Shown: piece after piece, positions 33,223 to 43,527 of the stretch | Position numbering within the stretch: position 1 is the stretch's first letter | Layout of the letters: each line of letters starts with the position of its first letter | From: Salinibacterium sp. UTAS2018 | Lineage (GTDB): Bacteria; Actinomycetota; Actinomycetes; Actinomycetales; Microbacteriaceae | Direction of reading: 5' to 3' | DNA: 64,000 bases | NCBI RefSeq assembly: GCF_004118935.1 | Contig: NZ_CP035375.1 | Span: 2,418,001 to 2,482,000 of the forward strand | Program-made: the position numbers and the translations under genes | Notes under the pieces: generated by a model | Databases searched by the model: none | What the model was told of the DNA's origin: nothing | Seen by the model: the letters and a program-made list of their open reading frames with translations, nothing else

Positions 33223-33294
<72 letters not shown>

Positions 33295-33320
33295 CGCTCA
33301 TCCGAATTTTTGGATGATGT

Positions 33321-33394
33321 GGCTGAGTAGCTCAGTTGGTGAGAGCGCACGACTCATAATCGTGAGGTCGCGGGTTCGAATCCCGCCTCAGCTA
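33321..33394 (+). tRNA. tRNA-Met (anticodon CAT)
   Basis: Acceptor GGCTGAG pairs with CTCAGCT (first pair G-T), the anticodon CAT (33355-33357) sits in loop CTCATAA between CACGA and TCGTG, the D-arm is AGCTCAGTTGGTGAGAGC and the T-arm GCGGGTTCGAATCCCGC. The first pair excludes the initiator. Elongator Met or lysidine-modified Ile cannot be separated by eye. It lies 26 bases after tRNA-Thr, with a CATCC/GGATG hairpin between. Confidence 0.93.
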
Positions 33395-33711
33395 CCGTTT
33401 GTTGTTCCCGGGATCTATGAGTCCCCTTGTTGTTTCCAGCGTTCGCTTCCGCGAGTTGTGACCGTCGCGCATCGCCTTCGCCTTCGCCTTCGCCTTCGCT
33501 CAGCGCCGGGCGGGTTCTTCGATGTCGGGCACCGCGAAAGCGAAAATACTTCTCTTATGATGGGTGGTGGCGCCACCACCACCACAGTTCCGGGCGTATT
33601 CGCGACAGTCGTGGGGGTAAAAATCGCCGTTGATCTTCATCACACCAACGTTCGGTCGCTCCGATTTGGGGTCGCTGGCGCTGACGACGCGCAGTTCCCA
33701 AGGAGTTTCCG
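33395..33711. other. gene-free stretch between tRNA-Met and the ThuA gene
   Basis: No convincing coding frame. It contains a CGCCTT hexamer repeat (33473-33500), a perfect 18-bp palindrome GGTGGTGGC-GCCACCACC (33563-33580), and AAGGAG before the ThuA start. The palindrome could be a repressor site for the ThuA gene 132 bases downstream, but nothing confirms it. Confidence 0.6.
33473..33500. repeat. CGCCTT hexanucleotide tandem repeat
   Basis: Four exact CGCCTT copies followed by CGCT. It lies in a gene-free stretch and is a candidate slipped-strand site. Confidence 0.9.
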
Positions 33712-34410
33712 ATGAGCAACCCGAAGAATGCACTCGTGGTGCGCGGGGGATGGCCCGGGCATCACCCCGTCGCCACCACCGACGCATTCATCCCCTTCCT
33801 TGAATCGCAGGGATTTGCCGTGCGCGTCGAAGAATCGTCTGCGATCTACGCCGACGAAGCCGCGATGAGTGATATCGACCTCATCGTTCAGTGTGTGTCG
33901 ATGGCGACAATCGAACGTGAAGAATTCGACGGATTAGATGCTGCTGTTCGGCGCGGAGTTGGGCTTGCCGGCTGGCACGGGGGAATCGTCGATTCGTATC
34001 GCAATACACCGGAGTATCCGCAACTTATTGGGGGATACTTCGCCACGCATCCGCCGAAGCCGCACCATGACCGCATGGGGGATGGCAGCGACTATATGGT
34101 TCCCCACCGCATAGAGGTCACTCCCGCGGGAAAGGAGCATCCCATCACCAGCGGTATCGGTGCGTTCGATCTCGACACTGAGCAGTATTGGGTGCTTACG
34201 GACAACTACAACACTGTGCTCGCTACGACGACGCATGCGAGTAAACCGGGAGATCCTTGGGGTTCGCCGGTGACATGCCCCGCGGTGTGGACGCGGCAGT
34301 GGGGCAAGGGGCGCGTGTTTGTCGCGACGCCAGGCCACGACCCCGACGTCTTGGCGATGTCGCCCGTGCGCACCATGGTCGAGCGGGGCCTGCTGTGGGC
34401 CAGCCGTTAG
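33712..34410 (+). CDS. ThuA domain protein
   Basis: A 232-residue glutamine-amidotransferase-like protein: ALVVRGGWPGHHPVATTDAF at the start, GVGLAGWHGGIVDSYRNTPE in the middle, and PAVWTRQWGKGRVFVATPGH towards the end, the conserved ThuA (trehalose utilisation) landmarks. No nucleophilic cysteine is seen, as usual for ThuA. The family is linked to oxidation of trehalose-type or other sugars; the substrate here is unknown. AAGGAG lies 6 bases before the ATG. Confidence 0.9.
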   Translation: MSNPKNALVVRGGWPGHHPVATTDAFIPFLESQGFAVRVEESSAIYADEAAMSDIDLIVQCVSMATIEREEFDGLDAAVRRGVGLAGWHGGIVDSYRNTPEYPQLIGGYFATHPPKPHHDRMGDGSDYMVPHRIEVTPAGKEHPITSGIGAFDLDTEQYWVLTDNYNTVLATTTHASKPGDPWGSPVTCPAVWTRQWGKGRVFVATPGHDPDVLAMSPVRTMVERGLLWASR

Positions 34411-34480
34411 ACGCCATTGGTAGGGGCCACGCGCTGCCCTCGCGAGAAATTGCGCACGCTCATCGCCTACGCTGAAGCCA

Positions 34481-34828
34481 ATGGACCATTTGCTGCTCAA
34501 ACAGTTTGTCGCCGCCGGGCACCAACTGCATTTCGCCCACGCGGCACGCTCGTTGGGGGTTCCGCGGTCGAACCTTGTTGCGGCGATCAGGTCACTCGAA
34601 GAGCAACTGGGTTACCCGCTGTTCGATACCTCCGCGACGACGACGCAGCTAACCCCTGAGGGCGAAGCGTTTCTGATCGACGCCGACCGTCAACTTGATA
34701 AGTCTGCGAAGGCCGCCGCCGCATCCGTGGCAAAGCCGGGCGGAAAAGCCAAAGCCTCGAAAGGTAAGGGGCGCGCGCCTTCGGTCAAAGGAAAGTCGAA
34801 GCCGGGCTTTCGACGCCAAGCGCGTTAG
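34481..34828 (+). CDS. LysR-type DNA-binding domain with basic tail, no ligand domain
   Basis: A 115-residue protein. Residues 1-65 are a LysR winged helix (LKQFVAAGHQLHFAHAARSL, SNLVAAIRSLEEQLGYPLFD, LTPEGEAFL). Instead of the about 220-residue substrate-binding domain there are 45 residues rich in Lys, Ala and Gly (KPGGKAKASKGKGRAPSV). It ends with a normal stop and looks intact, so it may act as a small nucleoid-type or partner-dependent regulator. TACGCT stands 7 bases before the ATG (leaderless). Confidence 0.85.
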   Translation: MDHLLLKQFVAAGHQLHFAHAARSLGVPRSNLVAAIRSLEEQLGYPLFDTSATTTQLTPEGEAFLIDADRQLDKSAKAAAASVAKPGGKAKASKGKGRAPSVKGKSKPGFRRQAR

Positions 34829-34963
34829 GCACCAGTGCCGGCGTAATTAACCTGCTTTTTACAAGGCTGGAATCTCAGGACCCCCACCGTGTCAGTGGCT
34901 CTGCCAAGCTTCAATGAACACGACGAGTAAGGCGCTCGCCGCACGCCCCGATTCGGCAGGTTC

Positions 34964-35527
34964 ATGTCCACGGTTGATCGCAGAGCAACGCTCGAATCGC
35001 CCCTGCGGGTGCCGGTCATCCGGACCCCGCGCGTATCGCTTCGACCGCACCGGATGTCGGATGCTGCGCGATGGCACGAGATTCAGTCCAGCCCGCAGGT
35101 GAGTCAGTACACGGCGTGGCCGCAGCGCAGCCGCCGGTCCTCGCTGCGACAACTGACGCGTCGAACACGGCAGACTTCTATCCGTCGAGTGGACGACGTG
35201 CTGGCGCTGGCCATCGAATTCGAGGGTGAGCTGGTCGGAGAAATCAGCCTGCAGTTACGATCCTTGACCGCCTCAACTCGTTGCCTCGAAGTGAGTTGGA
35301 TCGTGCATCCGCAATTCCAAGGTCAAGGAATCGCGTACGAAGCGATGCGGCCGCTTTTCGCCTACGTGCGGGCGAACATTGAAGCTCTGTTGTTGGTCGC
35401 CGTCGTACACCCGGAGAATGCGGCGTCAGTAAAGCTGGCGCACAAACTGAAGTTGCACCCGCTGCCGGGTACCGCCGATCGCACCGTTTTCGTGGGGCGG
35501 AATGGGCCGCTGGCAGCGTTGTTCTGA
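34964..35527 (+). CDS. GNAT N-acetyltransferase
   Basis: A 187-residue acetyltransferase of the RimJ/RimL-like group. TPRVSLRPHRMSDAARWHEI opens the fold, ALAIEFEGELVGEISLQL is strand 4, and WIVHPQFQGQGIAYEAMRPL holds the acetyl-CoA pyrophosphate loop (QGQGIA), followed by VVHPENAASVKLAHKLKL. The substrate is not predictable. A GGCAGG sequence lies close before the ATG. The about 130 bases before it hold nothing I can name. Confidence 0.85.
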   Translation: MSTVDRRATLESPLRVPVIRTPRVSLRPHRMSDAARWHEIQSSPQVSQYTAWPQRSRRSSLRQLTRRTRQTSIRRVDDVLALAIEFEGELVGEISLQLRSLTASTRCLEVSWIVHPQFQGQGIAYEAMRPLFAYVRANIEALLLVAVVHPENAASVKLAHKLKLHPLPGTADRTVFVGRNGPLAALF

Positions 35528-35661
35528 CGGAGGAACGGCGCCGGCTGCAGGTGGCTTAGGCGTGCTTGAACACGTAGCGGGGCTGGTCGACGGTGCCGCA
35601 CGGTTCGTGGCTGCGGGGCATAATGGGGGCAGCGCTCAGTGGTTGCGCGCGGATGGCGGTC

Positions 35662-36690
35662 ATGGAATCAGGTAGCGGGGTGCAATCGGCGAAGCTTCGT
35701 GCTCCGAACATACGAGACGTCGCTCGCCGCGCTGGAGTGTCGTACCAGACGGTCTCGCGGGTGCTTAATGACAGCCCCAACATCCGCGATTCCACACGGG
35801 ATCGTGTGCGCGAGGCCATAAATGAACTGGGCTACCGCCCCAATCAGGCGGCGCGCACTCTGGTCACCAGCCGCACGCGCACCATCGGTGTGCTCGCGCA
35901 GCAGTCGAGCCACTTCGGCCCGGCGACTACGATTCAGGCGATCGAGCTCGCAGCACGGGAGGCGAGTTATCGCCTCAGCATCACCAATGTTGCATCTAAT
36001 GACCGCCACGCGATCAAGGCTGGCCTCGACTATTTGATGAGTCAGTCGGTCGAAGCGATCGTCTTCGTGACGCCGCAAGGGCGAGCGTTGGATGCGGTGC
36101 GCGAGTTGTCAGTCTCGGTGCCGTTCGTGGCGCTACACGCCAATCAAGTCGACCAGAGTCGGCACAGCATGTCGGTCGACCAGCAGGCGGGCGCTCGCCT
36201 CGCCACGCGACACCTGATCGATCTCGGTCACACCGAGATCATGCACTTGTCCGGGCCCCGGGACTGGCTCGAGGCAGAAGCGCGCGTGCAGGGATTTCTC
36301 GACGAAATTAATGAAGCCGGGCTCAAGGCGCGGGCGCCCGTTCTGGGCGACTGGAGTTCCAGCTTCGGGTATTACGCGGGCCTCGAACTGCTGCGATCGC
36401 GCGACTTCACGGCGCTGTTCGCCAGCAATGACCAAATGGCGTTGGGCTTCATGCACGCCTGTCGTGAGCTGGGGCTGAGTATCCCCGACGATATGAGCGT
36501 CGTGGGCTTCGATGACATCCCCGAAGCGGCCCACTTCTTTCCGCCGCTGACCACAGTGCGGCAGAACCTTCCGGAAATCGGCCGTCGCGCCATCTCCGTA
36601 CTGTTGGCGGGCCTGCGCGGTGAAAATCCTGGTGACGACGGCATTGTTCTTCCGGAGTTAATCGTGCGCGAATCGACCGCGACGCTCTAG
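35662..36690 (+). CDS. LacI family regulator, probable arabinose repressor
   Basis: A 342-residue LacI-type repressor. The HTH and hinge are NIRDVARRAGVSYQTVSRVL and YRPNQAARTL. The periplasmic-binding-type effector domain contains TRTIGVLAQQSSHFGP, MHLSGPRDWLEAEARVQGF and FASNDQMALGFMHA. It lies on the same strand just before araBDA with two operator-like sites between. LacI-type AraR proteins control araBDA in some corynebacteria, so an arabinose role is a reasonable inference. Several in-frame ATGs exist (35593, 35653, 35662); the last two keep only a short tail before the HTH. Confidence 0.88.
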   Translation: MESGSGVQSAKLRAPNIRDVARRAGVSYQTVSRVLNDSPNIRDSTRDRVREAINELGYRPNQAARTLVTSRTRTIGVLAQQSSHFGPATTIQAIELAAREASYRLSITNVASNDRHAIKAGLDYLMSQSVEAIVFVTPQGRALDAVRELSVSVPFVALHANQVDQSRHSMSVDQQAGARLATRHLIDLGHTEIMHLSGPRDWLEAEARVQGFLDEINEAGLKARAPVLGDWSSSFGYYAGLELLRSRDFTALFASNDQMALGFMHACRELGLSIPDDMSVVGFDDIPEAAHFFPPLTTVRQNLPEIGRRAISVLLAGLRGENPGDDGIVLPELIVRESTATL

Positions 36691-36817: not shown

Positions 36818-38485
36818 GTGAGTTTTTCCCCGAGCGACCAATTCGTGATTGGTGTCGACTTCGGCACGCTGTCGGGTCGTGCCGTCGTAGTCCGCGTTTC
36901 CGATGGAGCCGAACTCGGCGCGGGCGTTCATGACTACTCCCACGCGGTTATGGACTCCACCTTGGCCAGTTCAGGCCAAGCGCTGCCGCCGGAGTGGGCG
37001 CTGCAGGTGCCTTCAGACTATGTGGACGTACTCAAACATGCCGTTCCCGCGGCGCTCACAGCATCCGGCGTCGACCCAGCGCAGGTCATCGGAATTGCAA
37101 CAGATTTCACCGCCTGCACCATGATCCCGACTCTGGCAGACGGTACTCCGCTCAATGAGCTTCTCGAGTTTGTGGACCGCCCCCACGCCTACGTCAAACT
37201 GTGGAAGCACCATGCCGCGCAGCCGCACGCTGACCGCATCAACGAGCTTGCGGCCGCACGGAATGAACCGTGGTTGTCTCGCTACGGTGGGCTCATCTCG
37301 AGCGAGTGGGAATTCGCTAAAGGACTGCAACTGCTCGAAGAGGATCCCGAACTGTACGAACTCATGGACCACTGGGTCGAAGCCGCCGACTGGATCGTCT
37401 GGCAGCTCTCCGGCCGCTACGTTCGTAACGCCTGCACCGCCGGGTATAAGGGCATCCTCCAGGACGGCGAGTACCCCAGTCGGGAATTCCTTGCCGCATT
37501 GAATCCCGCCTTCGCAAGCTTCGCTGATGACAAAGTGAGTCACGCTCTTGGCCAGTTAGGTGATGCTGCGGGCACGCTCACGGCGCAAGCAGCGTCTTGG
37601 ACGGGACTGCCCGAGGGAATCGCCGTCGCTGTGGGAAACGTCGACGCGCACGTGACCGCTCCTGCTGCTGGGGCGACGCGACCGGGTCAGATGGTCGCGA
37701 TTATGGGCACCTCCACGTGCCACGTCATGAACTCGGATGTTTTGACCGACGTTCCAGGGATGTGTGGAGTCGTCGAGGGCGGTATCGTCTCGGGCCTGTA
37801 TGGCTACGAAGCAGGACAGTCGGGGGTGGGCGATATCTTCGCCTGGTACGTCGAGAATCAGGTGCCATCTCGCTACTTCGACGCCGCCGCTGAGGTTGGC
37901 GTGAGCATCCACGAACACCTCACCAGCCTGATCGCCGGTCAACCGGTTGGCGGCCACGGATTGGTAGCGCTCGACTGGCACGGCGGCAACCGCTCGGTGC
38001 TTGTCGACGCGGAGCTCAGCGGCGTAGTGTTTGGCGCCACCCTCGCGACCCGCGCCGAAGAGGTGTACCGCGCATTGTTCGAAGCGACGGCGTTCGGCAC
38101 CCGCACGATTGTCGAAACCTTTAACGCACACGGCGTACCAGTGACCGATTTCATCGTCGCCGGAGGGCTGTTGCGCAACCCCGTGCTCATGCAAATCTAC
38201 AGCGACGTGCTGCGAATGCCCATCTCCACGATCGCGAGTGAGCAAGGTCCGGCGCTCGGCTCCGCGATTCACGCAGCCGTGGCTGCCGGGGCCTACGACA
38301 CCGTCGTGGCCGCGGGCGAAGCCATGGGCAAAGTTCAGAAGGCGACGTATGTGCCGGATGCGGCATCCGCTGACGCCTACGACGCACTTTTCGCAGAGTA
38401 CCGCACTCTGCACGACTACTTTGGCCGCGGCGGCAATGATGTCATGCGCCGGCTCAAAAACATTCGTCGGGAGGCCCTCGCATGA
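36818..38485 (+). CDS. araB: ribulokinase
   Basis: A 555-residue FGGY-family kinase that phosphorylates L-ribulose. The N-terminal phosphate loop is VIGVDFGTLSGRAVVV, a central motif is GTSTCHVMNSD, and the C-terminal adenosine motif is VAGGLLRNPVLMQIYSDVL. Length is typical for AraB. GTG start with GGAG 6 bases upstream. First gene of a three-gene operon joined by 4-base overlaps. Confidence 0.96.
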   Translation: MSFSPSDQFVIGVDFGTLSGRAVVVRVSDGAELGAGVHDYSHAVMDSTLASSGQALPPEWALQVPSDYVDVLKHAVPAALTASGVDPAQVIGIATDFTACTMIPTLADGTPLNELLEFVDRPHAYVKLWKHHAAQPHADRINELAAARNEPWLSRYGGLISSEWEFAKGLQLLEEDPELYELMDHWVEAADWIVWQLSGRYVRNACTAGYKGILQDGEYPSREFLAALNPAFASFADDKVSHALGQLGDAAGTLTAQAASWTGLPEGIAVAVGNVDAHVTAPAAGATRPGQMVAIMGTSTCHVMNSDVLTDVPGMCGVVEGGIVSGLYGYEAGQSGVGDIFAWYVENQVPSRYFDAAAEVGVSIHEHLTSLIAGQPVGGHGLVALDWHGGNRSVLVDAELSGVVFGATLATRAEEVYRALFEATAFGTRTIVETFNAHGVPVTDFIVAGGLLRNPVLMQIYSDVLRMPISTIASEQGPALGSAIHAAVAAGAYDTVVAAGEAMGKVQKATYVPDAASADAYDALFAEYRTLHDYFGRGGNDVMRRLKNIRREALA

Positions 38486-39225
38486 TCGCATACAGCCCAG
38501 AAGTTCAGGTCGCCATTGCGCGTATTCGCGATGAAGTTGCCGCACTTCACGCCGAACTTACCCGTTACGGTCTTGTCGTGTGGACCGGCGGTAACGTCTC
38601 AGCACGTGTGCCTGGAGCTGACCTGTTCGTGATCAAGCCGAGCGGGGTCTCGTACGACGACCTAGCGCCAGAGAACATGATTCTGTGCGATCTCGACGGT
38701 GCGGTGATCCGAGATACTCCGGGATCAGATCGTGCTCCCTCGAGCGACACAGCGGCCCACGCCTACATCTATCGCGCCATGCCCGAGGTCGGGGGAGTCG
38801 TGCACACCCACTCCACCTATGCCACCGCATGGGCGGCACGAGGCGAAGCTATCCCTTGCGTTATCACGGCGATGGCGGATGAATTCGGTGGTGAAATTCC
38901 TATCGGTCCTTTCGCGATAATCGGTGACGATTCGATCGGCCGCGGAGTTGTCGAGACGCTCACCGGCCACCGTTCGCGAGCTGTTCTGATGCAAAACCAT
39001 GGCCCTTTCTCGATCGGTAAGAATGCTCGCGATGCTGTGAAGGCCGCAGCGATGGTCGAGGATGTCGCGCGCACCGTTCACATCGCGCGACAGGGCGGAG
39101 CTCTGGTGCCGATTGCTCAAAGCGCTATCGACTCGCTCTTCGACCGCTATCAGAACGTGTACGGACAAGCTCCCCAAGGAGCACTAGTCGACAGCACCTC
39201 CGACGGAAAGGCACCCTCACTGTGA
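38482..39225 (+). CDS. araD: L-ribulose-5-phosphate 4-epimerase
   Basis: A 247-residue class II aldolase-fold enzyme converting L-ribulose 5-phosphate to D-xylulose 5-phosphate. The substrate loop is [10 protein letters not shown], the zinc histidines are in [16 protein letters not shown], and the third ligand region is [18 protein letters not shown] overlap with araB and GTGA overlap with araA indicate one translationally coupled operon. Confidence 0.95.
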
Positions 39226-40745
39226 GCAACCGCAGCATCACCCCCAACCTTGCGAGCTACGAAGTGTGGTTTCTCACGGGAAGCCAAGAGCTGTATGGCG
39301 AAGAGACTCTTCAGCAGGTCGCCGAGCAGAGCCGCGCTGTGGCCGATGCCTTGAGTGCCGCCGCGAACGTACCCGTTACGATCGTGTGGAAGCCGGTCTT
39401 GAAGGGCTCGGACGCCATCCGCCGCACCGCTCTTGAGATCAATGCTGCCGATAACGTGATTGGCGTTATCGCGTGGATGCATACCTTCAGCCCCGCCAAG
39501 ATGTGGATCGCGGGCCTCGACGCGCTGCGCAAGCCGCTGCTGCACCTTCACACTCAAGCCAATGTCGAGCTACCCTGGGCCGATATTGATTTCGACTTCA
39601 TGAACCTCAACCAAGCGGCGCACGGCGATCGCGAGTTTGGCTACATCCAGTCGCGTCTCGGCGTCGCGCGCAAAACCGTTGTGGGCCACGTCTCCAATCC
39701 GGCGGTGCTTGCCAGCATTGCGACCTGGTCGCGCGCCGCGGCAGGTTGGGCCGCCAGCCGTTCGCTCAAGCTCGCACGCTTCGGAGACAACATGCGTTTT
39801 GTCGCCGTAACGGAGGGTGACAAGACCGAGGCAGAATTGCGCTTCGGTGTGCAGGTCAACACCTGGGGCGTCAATGAACTCGCGGATGCCGTTGCTGCAG
39901 TAGCGGAAGCAGACATCGACGATCTCGTCGCGGAATACGAAGCGAGCTACGAGGTGGCGGCTGAACTGCGTGTTTCTGGCGAACGCCATCAGTCGCTGCG
40001 CGACGGTGCAGCGATCGAACTCGGTCTGCGCTCCTTCCTCGAAGCTGGCGGATTCTCGGCCTTCACCACTAGTTTCGAAGATCTTGGCCAGCTCAAGCAA
40101 CTGCCCGGGCTCGCGGTACAGCGTTTGATGGCGGATGGTTATGGGTTCGGCGCCGAGGGCGATTGGAAAACTGCCATCCTCGTGCGCGTCGCCAATGTCA
40201 TGGGCGCAGGGCTCCCCGGCGGCGCGAGCCTCATGGAGGACTACACCTATCACCTCACTCCGGGCGAAGAGAAAGTTCTCGGTGCTCACATGCTCGAAGT
40301 CAGTCCGAGTCTCACTACTTCCAAGCCGAGTCTCGAAATTCACCCGCTCGGAATCGGCGGCAAAGACGACCCCGTTCGTCTTGTATTCACGGCTGACAGT
40401 GGCCCCGCCGTGGTAGTTGCACTCAGCGACATGCGCGATCGTTTCCGTCTCGTCGCGAACGTCGTGGAAAACGTTCCGCTGGATGCCCCCATGCCGAACC
40501 TTCCGGTCGGTAGGGCCGTGTGGAAGCCTGCGCCCGACTTTGCAACCTCGGCGGCGGCCTGGCTGATTGCGGGCGCTGCACATCACACAGTGATGTCCAC
40601 AGCGGTTGACATCGAGGTTTTCCGCGACTGGGCCGAAATGTCGGGAACGGAGCTTCTCGTCATTGATGAAAGCACGACGATCCGCGAGTTCCAGAAAGAA
40701 GTTCGCTGGAATGCGGCCTACTACCGGCTGGCACAGGGGCTGTAA
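39222..40745 (+). CDS. araA: L-arabinose isomerase
   Basis: A 507-residue isomerase converting L-arabinose to L-ribulose. [20 protein letters not shown] opens the protein, [13 protein letters not shown] is the conserved N-terminal core, and the metal-binding C-terminal part contains [16 protein letters not shown] and [19 protein letters not shown]. Length and motifs leave no doubt. No arabinose transporter is encoded next to the operon. Confidence 0.96.
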
Positions 40746-40806
40746 GTCGACGTAGCTAAACCGATCTGGATAAGCACGATGCTTCGCCGCGCAGGGGCGT
40801 AGGTGC

Positions 40807-40839
40807 TAGCGTGACAACCACCGTCGAAGGGAATATCCC
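40807..40839 (+). promoter_or_regulatory. possible heliorhodopsin promoter and translation start region
   Basis: TAGCGT (40807-40812), a -10 form also seen before the 60425 gene, precedes a 27-base leader. AAGGG lies 7 bases before the GTG, inside a short GGGA-ATA-TCCC stem. No good -35 is seen. Confidence 0.4.
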
Positions 40840-41643
40840 GTGTCAAAGAAGACCTATTCTCCGGAGCAGCAAGTTGATCGTCTGCGCATCTACAACATTG
40901 TGGCGGGCAGCCTGCATCTCCTGCAGGCCATCGGCTTTGCCATCGTTCTCACGATGCTCAGTACTCAAGTGCTGTTCGCCGTCACGGCGGACTACCTAGC
41001 GGGCCCTCCCGGAGCGCCGATACCGCCCGAGCGTGTGACCGTCTTCGAGATCAACATCGGGATCGGCGTCGTCGTCTTCCTCGCGCTGAGCGCGGTATTC
41101 CACTTTGCGGTGTCGAGCCCGTGGTTCTTTGGGCGCTACAAGACGGGCCTGCTGGAGAGCCGCAACTACTTCCGTTGGACCGAATACTCGCTCAGTTCAT
41201 CCATCATGATCTGGCTGATTCTCGCGATCAATGGAGTGACGGATATCGCGGCACTCTTCGCAGTATTCACCGTGAACGCCGCCATGATTCTGTTCGGTGC
41301 GGTGCAAGAGAAGTACGAGAAGCCCGGATCGGGCGGGATGCTGCCCTTCATCTTCGGCTCGATGGTCGGTGTTGTGCCGTGGATTCTTATCCTCATCTAC
41401 TTCTTGCGCCCCGGCAGCTCCAACGAAGCCGCTGCTCCCGGTTTTGTCGTCGGCATTGTGATCTCGCTCTTCCTGTTCTTCAACACCTTCGCCCTCAACC
41501 AGTGGTTGCAATACAAGCAAGTGGGCAAGTGGAAGAGCTACCTGCAGGGCGAACGCACCTACATCACGCTCAGCCTGGTCGCGAAGACCGCGCTCGCGTG
41601 GCAAGTGTTCTCCGGCGCGATCGTTCCGGCGCTCACCAGTTGA
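40840..41643 (+). CDS. heliorhodopsin
   Basis: A 267-residue seven-helix retinal protein. The Schiff-base lysine is in helix 7, TLSLVAKTALAWQVF (Lys249). The counterion is in helix 3, FRWTEYSLSSSIMIWL (Glu115). The 134-residue spacing equals that of Glu107 and Lys241 in heliorhodopsin 48C12. The sequence lacks the type 1 DxxxxT/D pump motif. Heliorhodopsins are inverted (N-terminus inside) and have a long photocycle; most do not pump ions and the role is unsettled, with regulatory links to enzymes proposed. It follows araA by 94 bases on the same strand but has its own promoter-like box. No retinal synthesis gene is in the window. Confidence 0.96.
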   Translation: MSKKTYSPEQQVDRLRIYNIVAGSLHLLQAIGFAIVLTMLSTQVLFAVTADYLAGPPGAPIPPERVTVFEINIGIGVVVFLALSAVFHFAVSSPWFFGRYKTGLLESRNYFRWTEYSLSSSIMIWLILAINGVTDIAALFAVFTVNAAMILFGAVQEKYEKPGSGGMLPFIFGSMVGVVPWILILIYFLRPGSSNEAAAPGFVVGIVISLFLFFNTFALNQWLQYKQVGKWKSYLQGERTYITLSLVAKTALAWQVFSGAIVPALTS

Positions 41644-41675: not shown

Positions 41676-41713
41676 AGAAATGCCCCGCAGCTGATGCTGC
41701 GGGGCATTTCTTT
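41676..41713. terminator. strong terminator after heliorhodopsin
   Basis: AGAAATGCCCCGCAGC and GCTGCGGGGCATTTCT form a perfect 16-bp stem with loop TGAT, followed by TTT on the plus strand. It also stands 53 bases beyond the convergent oxidoreductase gene and may serve both. Confidence 0.92.
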
Positions 41714-41766: not shown

Positions 41767-42771
41767 CTAGATACGAACGAGCGCCTTGCCGATGTTGGCG
41801 CCGCTCATCATGCCGTTGAAAGCATCGAGAGCGTTATCAATGCCGTCGGTGATGGTTTCATCGAAGACGATCTTGCCTTCGCCGAGCCAGCCCTGCATTG
41901 CGGCGCCGAACTCGGGGGCGAGGTGGAAGTAGCTGCCCATCGTGAAGCCCTTGATGGTGAGACCACGGGTGACGATGTTGGAGCTGTTCTTGATGCCCTC
42001 ATCCTTGCCGTTGATCAATGACATAACGCCGCAGACTGCTACGCGGCCGCCGTCCTTGAATGCACCGAGTGCTGCCGAGAGGTGCTCGCCACCCACGTTG
42101 TCGAAATAGACATCGATTCCGTCGGGTGCTGCGGCATCCAGCTGACCGGCGATGTCGCCGTTCTTGTAGTTGAAGGCGGCGTCGTAGCCGTACTTGCTTG
42201 TGAGGAGTGCGACCTTCTCGTCGGTGCCGGCGCTGCCGACAACGCGTGCTGCACCGAGGATGCGAGCGATTTGGCCCACCATCGTGCCGACTCCACCAGC
42301 GGCACCGGAAACGAAGACGGTGTCGCCCTCCTTGATGTGGGCGATCTGAGTGAGGCCGGTCCAGGCGGTGATTCCGGTGATGCCGAGAACGCTGAGGAAC
42401 AGCGAGGGCGAGATACCGGGAACGTCGGGGAGCGCCGTGAACTGACCAGCGGGAGCCTGCGCGATGTCGCGCCAGCCGAGCTGGTGCTGCACGAGGGTGC
42501 CGACGGGCAGCGATGCATCCTTCGACTCGATGACTTCACCAACCGCAGCCCCGACCATTGTCTCGTTGAGGTTGAACGGTGCGATGTACGAGCGGCCCTC
42601 GTTCATGCGACCGCGCATGTACGGGTCAACCGAGAGGAACGTGTTGCGTACGCGAACGTCGCCGTCAGCGAGCTCGGGCAGGTCGACCTGAATCTTGACC
42701 ACGTTCTCGGTGGTAGGTACGCCGGTGGGGCGTGAGGCGAGTTGCCATTGGGTGCTGGTGCTTGTTGTCAT
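41767..42771 (-). CDS. NADP-dependent oxidoreductase, CurA-like MDR family
   Basis: A 334-residue zinc-independent medium-chain reductase. RNTFLSVDPYMRGRMNEGRS is the conserved CurA/prostaglandin-reductase N-terminal motif, VFVSGAAGGVGTMVGQIARI the NADP loop, and YFDNVGGEHLSAAL follows. The family reduces alpha,beta-unsaturated carbonyls. It lies 51 bases after the DJ-1-like gene on the same strand; both deal with reactive carbonyl compounds, supporting a shared stress role under the TetR regulator. Confidence 0.92.
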   Translation of the reverse strand: MTTSTSTQWQLASRPTGVPTTENVVKIQVDLPELADGDVRVRNTFLSVDPYMRGRMNEGRSYIAPFNLNETMVGAAVGEVIESKDASLPVGTLVQHQLGWRDIAQAPAGQFTALPDVPGISPSLFLSVLGITGITAWTGLTQIAHIKEGDTVFVSGAAGGVGTMVGQIARILGAARVVGSAGTDEKVALLTSKYGYDAAFNYKNGDIAGQLDAAAPDGIDVYFDNVGGEHLSAALGAFKDGGRVAVCGVMSLINGKDEGIKNSSNIVTRGLTIKGFTMGSYFHLAPEFGAAMQGWLGEGKIVFDETITDGIDNALDAFNGMMSGANIGKALVRI

Positions 42772-42822: not shown

Positions 42823-43527
42823 TTAGGACTTGTCGGCGACGATGCGCTCGGCAACGGCGACGGATGATGCGGGGTTCTGACCGGTGTACAGCGAGCCATC
42901 AACGACCACGTAGGGCGCGAAGGGCTCCGGTGCCTTGGAGTAGTCGGCACCCAGTTCAACGAGACGGGTCTCGACGAGCCACTTGACCTTGTCGGCGAGG
43001 CCGGCGATCTCTTCTTCGCTGTTGGCGAAGCCGGTCATCTTGCGGCCCTTGAGAACCCATTCGCCGGTCGCCTTGTCGTTCGCGGCGAGCAGTGCAGCGG
43101 GGGCGTGGCAGAGGACACCGAGGGTGGTGTTCGACTTAACGGCCTCGACGATGAGCTGGCCGGAGTCGTCGTCGGTCGCGAGGTCTTCCATGGGGCCGTG
43201 GCCGCCGGGGTAGAAGATGACGTCATAGTCGCTGGCGTTGACGGCATCCAAGCGGAGGGGATTCTGGAGGATGCTCTGCATTGCGGCAATTCGAGCCTCG
43301 AAGTCAGCGAGGCGTTCGGCGGAACCGACACCACCCTCGCTGAGGCTGGAAGCGTCAAAAGTGGGGGCGACGCCGGCGGGGCTGGCGAGCTGAACCTTCC
43401 AGCCGGCCTCGGTGAAGATGCGGTACGGCTCGAGAAGCTCTTCTGCCCAGACACCCGTGGGGTGCTCTGAACCATCGGCGAGCGTCAAGTGTGATGCTGC
43501 GGACAAGACCATCAATACGTTTGTCAT
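42823..43527 (-). CDS. DJ-1/PfpI-type protein, Hsp31-like (glyoxalase III/chaperone)
   Basis: A 234-residue type 1 amidotransferase-like protein. The nucleophile elbow is GVLCHAPAALLAA (Cys140, His141), the glutamate side is TGVWAEELLEPY, and IFYPGGHGPMEDLA is the conserved oxyanion loop. This pattern fits Hsp31-like DJ-1 proteins that remove methylglyoxal or protect proteins. AGGAG lies before the ATG. It diverges from the TetR gene across two palindromes. Confidence 0.9.
   Translation of the reverse strand: MTNVLMVLSAASHLTLADGSEHPTGVWAEELLEPYRIFTEAGWKVQLASPAGVAPTFDASSLSEGGVGSAERLADFEARIAAMQSILQNPLRLDAVNASDYDVIFYPGGHGPMEDLATDDDSGQLIVEAVKSNTTLGVLCHAPAALLAANDKATGEWVLKGRKMTGFANSEEEIAGLADKVKWLVETRLVELGADYSKAPEPFAPYVVVDGSLYTGQNPASSVAVAERIVADKS

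Follow-up and report, generated by a model that had tools for sequence, protein, structure and literature searches.

A heliorhodopsin gene next to an arabinose block in Salinibacterium sp. UTAS2018: gene identity, retinal source and gene setting

The window analyzed here, a stretch of 64,000 nucleotides from Salinibacterium sp. UTAS2018, carries a heliorhodopsin (HeR) gene directly downstream of a set of arabinose genes, and this arrangement raises the questions of what such a protein does in this setting and from where it obtains its retinal. Heliorhodopsins probably act as slow photoreceptors and not as ion pumps. Taking all the evidence together, we consider it likely that the gene encodes a canonical, retinal-binding photoreceptor expressed from a promoter of its own, that the arabinose genes came to lie beside it through an accidental insertion, and that the retinal comes from outside the cell.

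Identity and conservation of the heliorhodopsin

The HeR gene (40840..41643, + strand) starts with GTG and encodes 267 amino acids with no internal stop, including E115 in helix 3 and K249 in helix 7. In a Pfam scan at E ≤ 10, PF18761 (Heliorhodopsin) was the sole family to match the protein, with 307.2 bits against a cut-off of 26.7; the type-1 rhodopsin family PF01036 gave no match, nor did any other seven-helix family fit better. The NCBIfam equivalog for HeR, NF038020, scored 333.9 bits (cut-off 100). When the protein was compared with PDB sequences by phmmer, the HeR 48C12 (PDB 6su3, also represented by 6su4 and 6uh3) aligned over nearly the full length (5.6e-85, residues 10-265 on 7-257). 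In this alignment, residues 107 (E) and 241 (K) of 48C12, which we take to be the counter-ion and the retinal lysine, fall on E115 and K249, and the spacing from E to K is 134 residues in both proteins. The window HeR also has the same residues as 48C12 at H26, H88, S120, N146, E157 and S245, presumably further positions of importance in heliorhodopsins. The two proteins come from different hosts. Type-1 microbial rhodopsins, of which actinorhodopsin is an example, likewise carry their retinal lysine in helix 7, but PF01036 matched neither the window protein nor anything else in its genome, where HeR is the only rhodopsin detected.

The original prediction, which had called the gene a heliorhodopsin from Glu115, Lys249 and the spacing of the type protein, is therefore borne out by both family profiles and by the alignment, including the fall of K249 on a retinal lysine. 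By these comparisons, the gene encodes a genuine, canonical heliorhodopsin that is an ordinary member of the known family. By homology, the protein would have the inverted membrane topology with the N-terminus inside. It would be a seven-helix membrane protein carrying retinal on K249 with E115 as the counter-ion, and family membership suggests that it may act as a slow photoreceptor that pumps no ions.

To see how well these features are kept, we turned to a sample of 249 Microbacteriaceae genomes out of a larger set. A HeR match exceeded the cut-off in 39 of them; that of G248 is a lysine-less protein, which leaves 38 HeR genomes. With the fragment G094:C15 (profile positions 1-126) left out of the reading, the lysine and the glutamate are both present in all 40 HeR copies read from these 38 genomes. 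Among named HeR genes (80 loci, L134 left out), the LSLxAK and RWxEY motifs were found in 79 of 79. HeR is under strong purifying selection, with dN/dS values of 0.007-0.057 over 15 pairs of six sequences from the genus; five of these pairs, all involving the sister genome G145, have dS >1. In a tree of 54 selected sequences, the window HeR groups with that of Salinibacterium amurskyense (96/90).

Source of the retinal

The absence of a retinal synthesis gene from the neighborhood had been noted at the outset, along with the corollary that another part of the genome, or an external source, must supply the chromophore. No known retinal-making family matched near HeR, and the corollary can be sharpened: PF15461 (Blh) and PF03055 (RPE65-type) had no match anywhere in the window genome (G000), which is a single contig. 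The window genome thus resembles rhodopsin plus Blh systems in having a retinal-binding protein and differs from them in having neither enzyme family. PF15461 had no match in any of the five genomes of the genus that were sampled, and the sister G145 has a type-1 rhodopsin with no Blh found. The same model does find Blh in 27 of the 249 genomes of the family sample, in which type-1 rhodopsin and RPE65-type proteins were found, again over the cut-off, in 62 and 6 genomes, respectively.

A carotenoid cluster, which we assume to be of the C50 type, is present in the window genome and contains crtI, two lycopene-cyclase domains, a PRK13105-type prenyltransferase and, judged by eye, a crtB-like ORF. 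Looking for blh, crtY and crtI, as had been proposed, thus gave a divided result: crtI and cyclase domains are there, but blh had no match, and PF05834 is represented in G000 by two partial matches only. A full lycopene cyclase was not found in a set of nine genomes, which gave only partial PF05834 matches; these comprise five from the genus and four other HeR genomes that have neither type-1 rhodopsin nor Blh. Because the window genome shows no known retinal-forming enzyme and no other detected rhodopsin, the retinal is most likely taken from outside the cell, and HeR would be loaded with this scavenged molecule.

How unusual this state is can be judged from the family sample. Type-1 rhodopsin accompanies HeR in 28 of the 38 HeR genomes and Blh in 9, none has an RPE65-type protein, and eight have neither type-1 rhodopsin nor Blh, among them the window genome and S. 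amurskyense (G197). HeR is associated with type-1 rhodopsin (28/38 vs 34/211) and weakly associated with Blh (9/38 vs 18/211), both counts being uncorrected for relatedness. By these associations, lacking both is the rarer condition in genomes with HeR; most of the genus is in this condition. Since HeR is the only rhodopsin detected here and is strongly selected with its lysine intact in a genome that shows neither known kind of retinal enzyme, we tentatively suggest that it could respond jointly to light and to retinal that phototrophic neighbors release, an idea we find plausible but hold short of probable.

A separate observation concerns the type-1 rhodopsins of Microbacteriaceae, where PF15461 is missing from 38 of the 62 genomes that have such a rhodopsin; one of these 38 (G159) has PF03055, and among the 38 are the one-contig genomes G059, G229 and, from the sisters, G145. 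Such a proportion suggests scavenging, a divergent enzyme or a route to retinal that is not yet described, and by the same count a very divergent retinal-forming enzyme may have been missed in the window genome. It also lends some weight to the strongest alternative to uptake, in which the organism would make its own retinal with an undescribed enzyme from C50-type or minor carotenoids and load HeR from inside. However, a search of G000 gave no cyclase domains beyond the two of the carotenoid cluster, and we regard internal synthesis as possible but rather unlikely.

Far less probable, in our judgment, is that HeR works without retinal, as an apo-protein component of the membrane. Such a role would agree with the lack of a match to any known retinal-forming family in the window genome, and the lysine-less HeR-like paralogues of the family, described below, indicate that the scaffold is able to survive where the lysine has gone. 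On the other hand, the unbroken conservation of lysine and glutamate in the family sample extends to the eight genomes that lack both type-1 rhodopsin and Blh, and the two motifs are equally constant in the named genes; such constancy would be difficult to account for if no retinal were bound. A lineage with one rhodopsin and neither known kind of retinal enzyme would make either scavenging or an undescribed synthase directly testable, and S. amurskyense, a named DSM strain, shares the state without type-1 rhodopsin and Blh.

Gene neighborhood and transcription

We then asked whether the genes around HeR say anything about its function. A GNAT acetyltransferase gene (34964..35527, + strand) lies upstream in the window, and its homologue directly precedes HeR in four of four sister genomes, being 77-80% identical to the window copy in three of them and 44-47% identical in G145. 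This arrangement could suggest that HeR acts together with the acetyltransferase. However, a GNAT match was found at only 9 of 97 HeR loci (L043, L045 and L046 of which duplicate L066, L064 and L065); eight of the nine, duplicates included, belong to the sister group of the window, and the ninth (L080) is weak, with 31% identity, and lies on the opposite side of HeR. Together with the 5.3 kb that separate the two genes in the window and the divergence of the G145 copy, these counts make a GNAT partnership very doubtful. A wider survey of the closest 80 of 180 named loci, based on a crude GC-based gene caller and on up to six genes on each side with some loci cut by contig ends, revealed no conserved neighbor, the largest family occurring at 11 of the 80 loci in mixed positions. 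A conserved functional partner of HeR was accordingly rejected as a candidate, no widely conserved neighbor having been found.

Between the GNAT gene and HeR lies the arabinose block, all on the + strand. It begins with a LacI-type, araR-like regulator (35593..36690) and continues with araB for ribulokinase (36818..38485; TIGR01234, 765.7 bits), araD for L-ribulose-5-phosphate 4-epimerase (38482..39225; NF005123, 368.1 bits) and araA for L-arabinose isomerase (39222..40745; NF002795, 795.3 bits), these family matches confirming that araB, araD and araA precede HeR on its strand as predicted. The gap between araA and HeR is 94 bases, and it contains no strong fold (z 0.14 vs shuffles), so read-through from the arabinose genes into HeR is possible in the window strain.

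The comparison with related genomes indicates that araA is a chance neighbor of HeR. In blastn comparisons, the match to the three closer sister genomes stops by 35521 and restarts at 40802, and araA was not found in any of the four sister genomes. Across the 97 HeR loci, some of them cut by contig ends, there was no match to araB, araD or araA. Seen from the other side, 11 of the 27 Salinibacterium genomes compared, among them the window genome, carry araA, and HeR was not found in the 8.7-17 kb fetched around araA in the ten other araA genomes. Two of these, G652 (S. xinjiangense) and G649 (Salinibacterium sp. G-O1), do have HeR on the contig that carries araA, at a distance of more than 200 kb; for the remaining eight, the search for HeR covered the stretch fetched around araA. 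Gene order after araA in related genomes, which had been proposed as a check, therefore speaks against the suggested tie between light sensing and arabinose use. An operon in which HeR would couple light to sugar use is favored by the common strand, the short gap and the lack of a clear terminator in it, but is extremely unlikely given that, among the genomes examined, the adjacency is confined to that of the window and that the −10 element of HeR, described below, stands at the edge of the block and is common to sisters lacking it. The HeR-arabinose operon was rejected as a candidate on this lack of conserved adjacency among the sisters, the 97 loci and the ten araA genomes.

The simplest reading of these boundaries is that, in the window lineage, araRBDA was inserted behind a GNAT gene that was there before it and ahead of the HeR promoter, and the block would then have no functional tie to HeR; loss of the arabinose genes in the sisters, instead of insertion, is a less simple reading. 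With the setting most probably accidental, a tempting but false lead on HeR function is removed. Two further observations were made in this region and its counterparts. The gene content between tRNA-Thr/tRNA-Met and HeR varies among the sisters, in the manner of an insertion hot spot (33223-35592 in the window), and at all three of the other araA loci that were listed gene by gene (L235, L237 and L240) a gene resembling a sugar ABC ATPase, read by eye, lies beyond araA on its strand.

An extended −10 promoter-like element, TGCTAGCGT (40804..40812, + strand), begins 36 nt before the HeR start codon and is a putative promoter. It lies at the very edge of the arabinose block and is shared with the sisters that have no such block. 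To evaluate it, we assembled 80 HeR upstream regions, consisting of 79 loci and the window, with L134 omitted, as the match there began at residue 9. The motif TGNTANNNT occurs within 70 bases upstream of HeR in 41 of the 80 regions, compared with a mean of 2.1 and a maximum of 8 in shuffled sequences, and it precedes 31 of 1060 other genes of the same loci, for which start sites are crude. After similar regions were removed, it was still found in 30 of 58 (shuffles: 1.4, maximum 7). A simple −10 pattern is absent from 39 of the 80 regions, and a sigma-70 consensus scan listed no promoter upstream of HeR. The enrichment of TGNTANNNT makes a start site belonging to HeR itself most likely, and the gene is probably transcribed alone from this extended −10 promoter.

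Downstream of the element, the probable ribosome-binding site of HeR, GAAGGGA (40826..40832, + strand), is present in the four sister genomes. The GGGA/TCCC stem that had been described at this site does exist (40829-40832 / 40836-40839). Shuffled sequences, however, fold just as well as this stretch (z 0.08), and the stem is broken in G145; on both counts it was rejected as a meaningful structure.

At the other end of the gene, a perfect 16-bp hairpin with a 4-nt loop (41676..41711) lies between HeR and a convergent oxidoreductase gene, with a folding energy of −33.9 kcal/mol (z −8.8 vs shuffles). The hairpin had been taken for a terminator closing this side of the locus; its strength is confirmed, but a consensus terminator scan did not list it, and the label, which is given because of the hairpin and a short T-rich tail, is only probable. 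In this position, G082 has a near-identical hairpin and G145 has one that differs; for G197 and G242, in which HeR is followed by another gene, none is evident in the stretch examined. The HeR transcript probably ends at this hairpin, which would act as a bidirectional terminator common to both genes. The oxidoreductase gene (41767..42771, − strand; ADH_N_2/ADH_zinc_N) and the DJ-1/PfpI family gene beyond it (42823..43527, − strand) form a right flank of HeR that is conserved in all four sisters, with 0 to 3 genes between HeR and the oxidoreductase gene.

Lysine-less heliorhodopsin-like paralogues

The family sample also contained 14 HeR-like paralogues (L161-L172, L178 and L179), defined as all family profile matches scoring below 130 bits, and none of the 14 has a lysine in the K249 column. 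At the position of E115, ten of them carry glutamate, three aspartate and one alanine. Nine were scanned with PF18761, and eight exceeded the cut-off, with L169 just under it. An AlphaFold2 model of one of these proteins, built from 14 sequences, has a mean pLDDT of 79, and its ten best PDB matches are all heliorhodopsins with TM scores of 0.72-0.75 over the query. In the tree, the lysine-less paralogues fall on one side of a single branch (100/99), a placement that carries long-branch and composition warnings.

Searching 396 genomes of the order with a profile of the lysine-less proteins gave matches in 27 genomes; the 26 full-length matches, two of which are within Microbacteriaceae, all have the lysine. 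Lysine-less proteins may have been missed in this search because only six candidates were scored per genome. Within the family, the genomes that carry the lysine-less paralogues have type-1 rhodopsin in 12 of 14 cases and Blh in 10 of 14 (uncorrected for relatedness). Proteins of this kind could serve to separate the function of the HeR scaffold from that of retinal.

A DUF1684 (PF07920) gene recurs beside both kinds of protein. In the survey of 80 loci it directly follows HeR at nine (tblastn), for example at 9809-10621 of L102, in Pontimonas and in other Microbacteriaceae or Actinomycetota; L107 and L110 in this count come from one assembly, and L175 and L176 are further copies of such loci. 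Among the lysine-less paralogues, it follows closely in 4 of 14 cases (L162, L165, L167 and L168), with one gene in between in L162.
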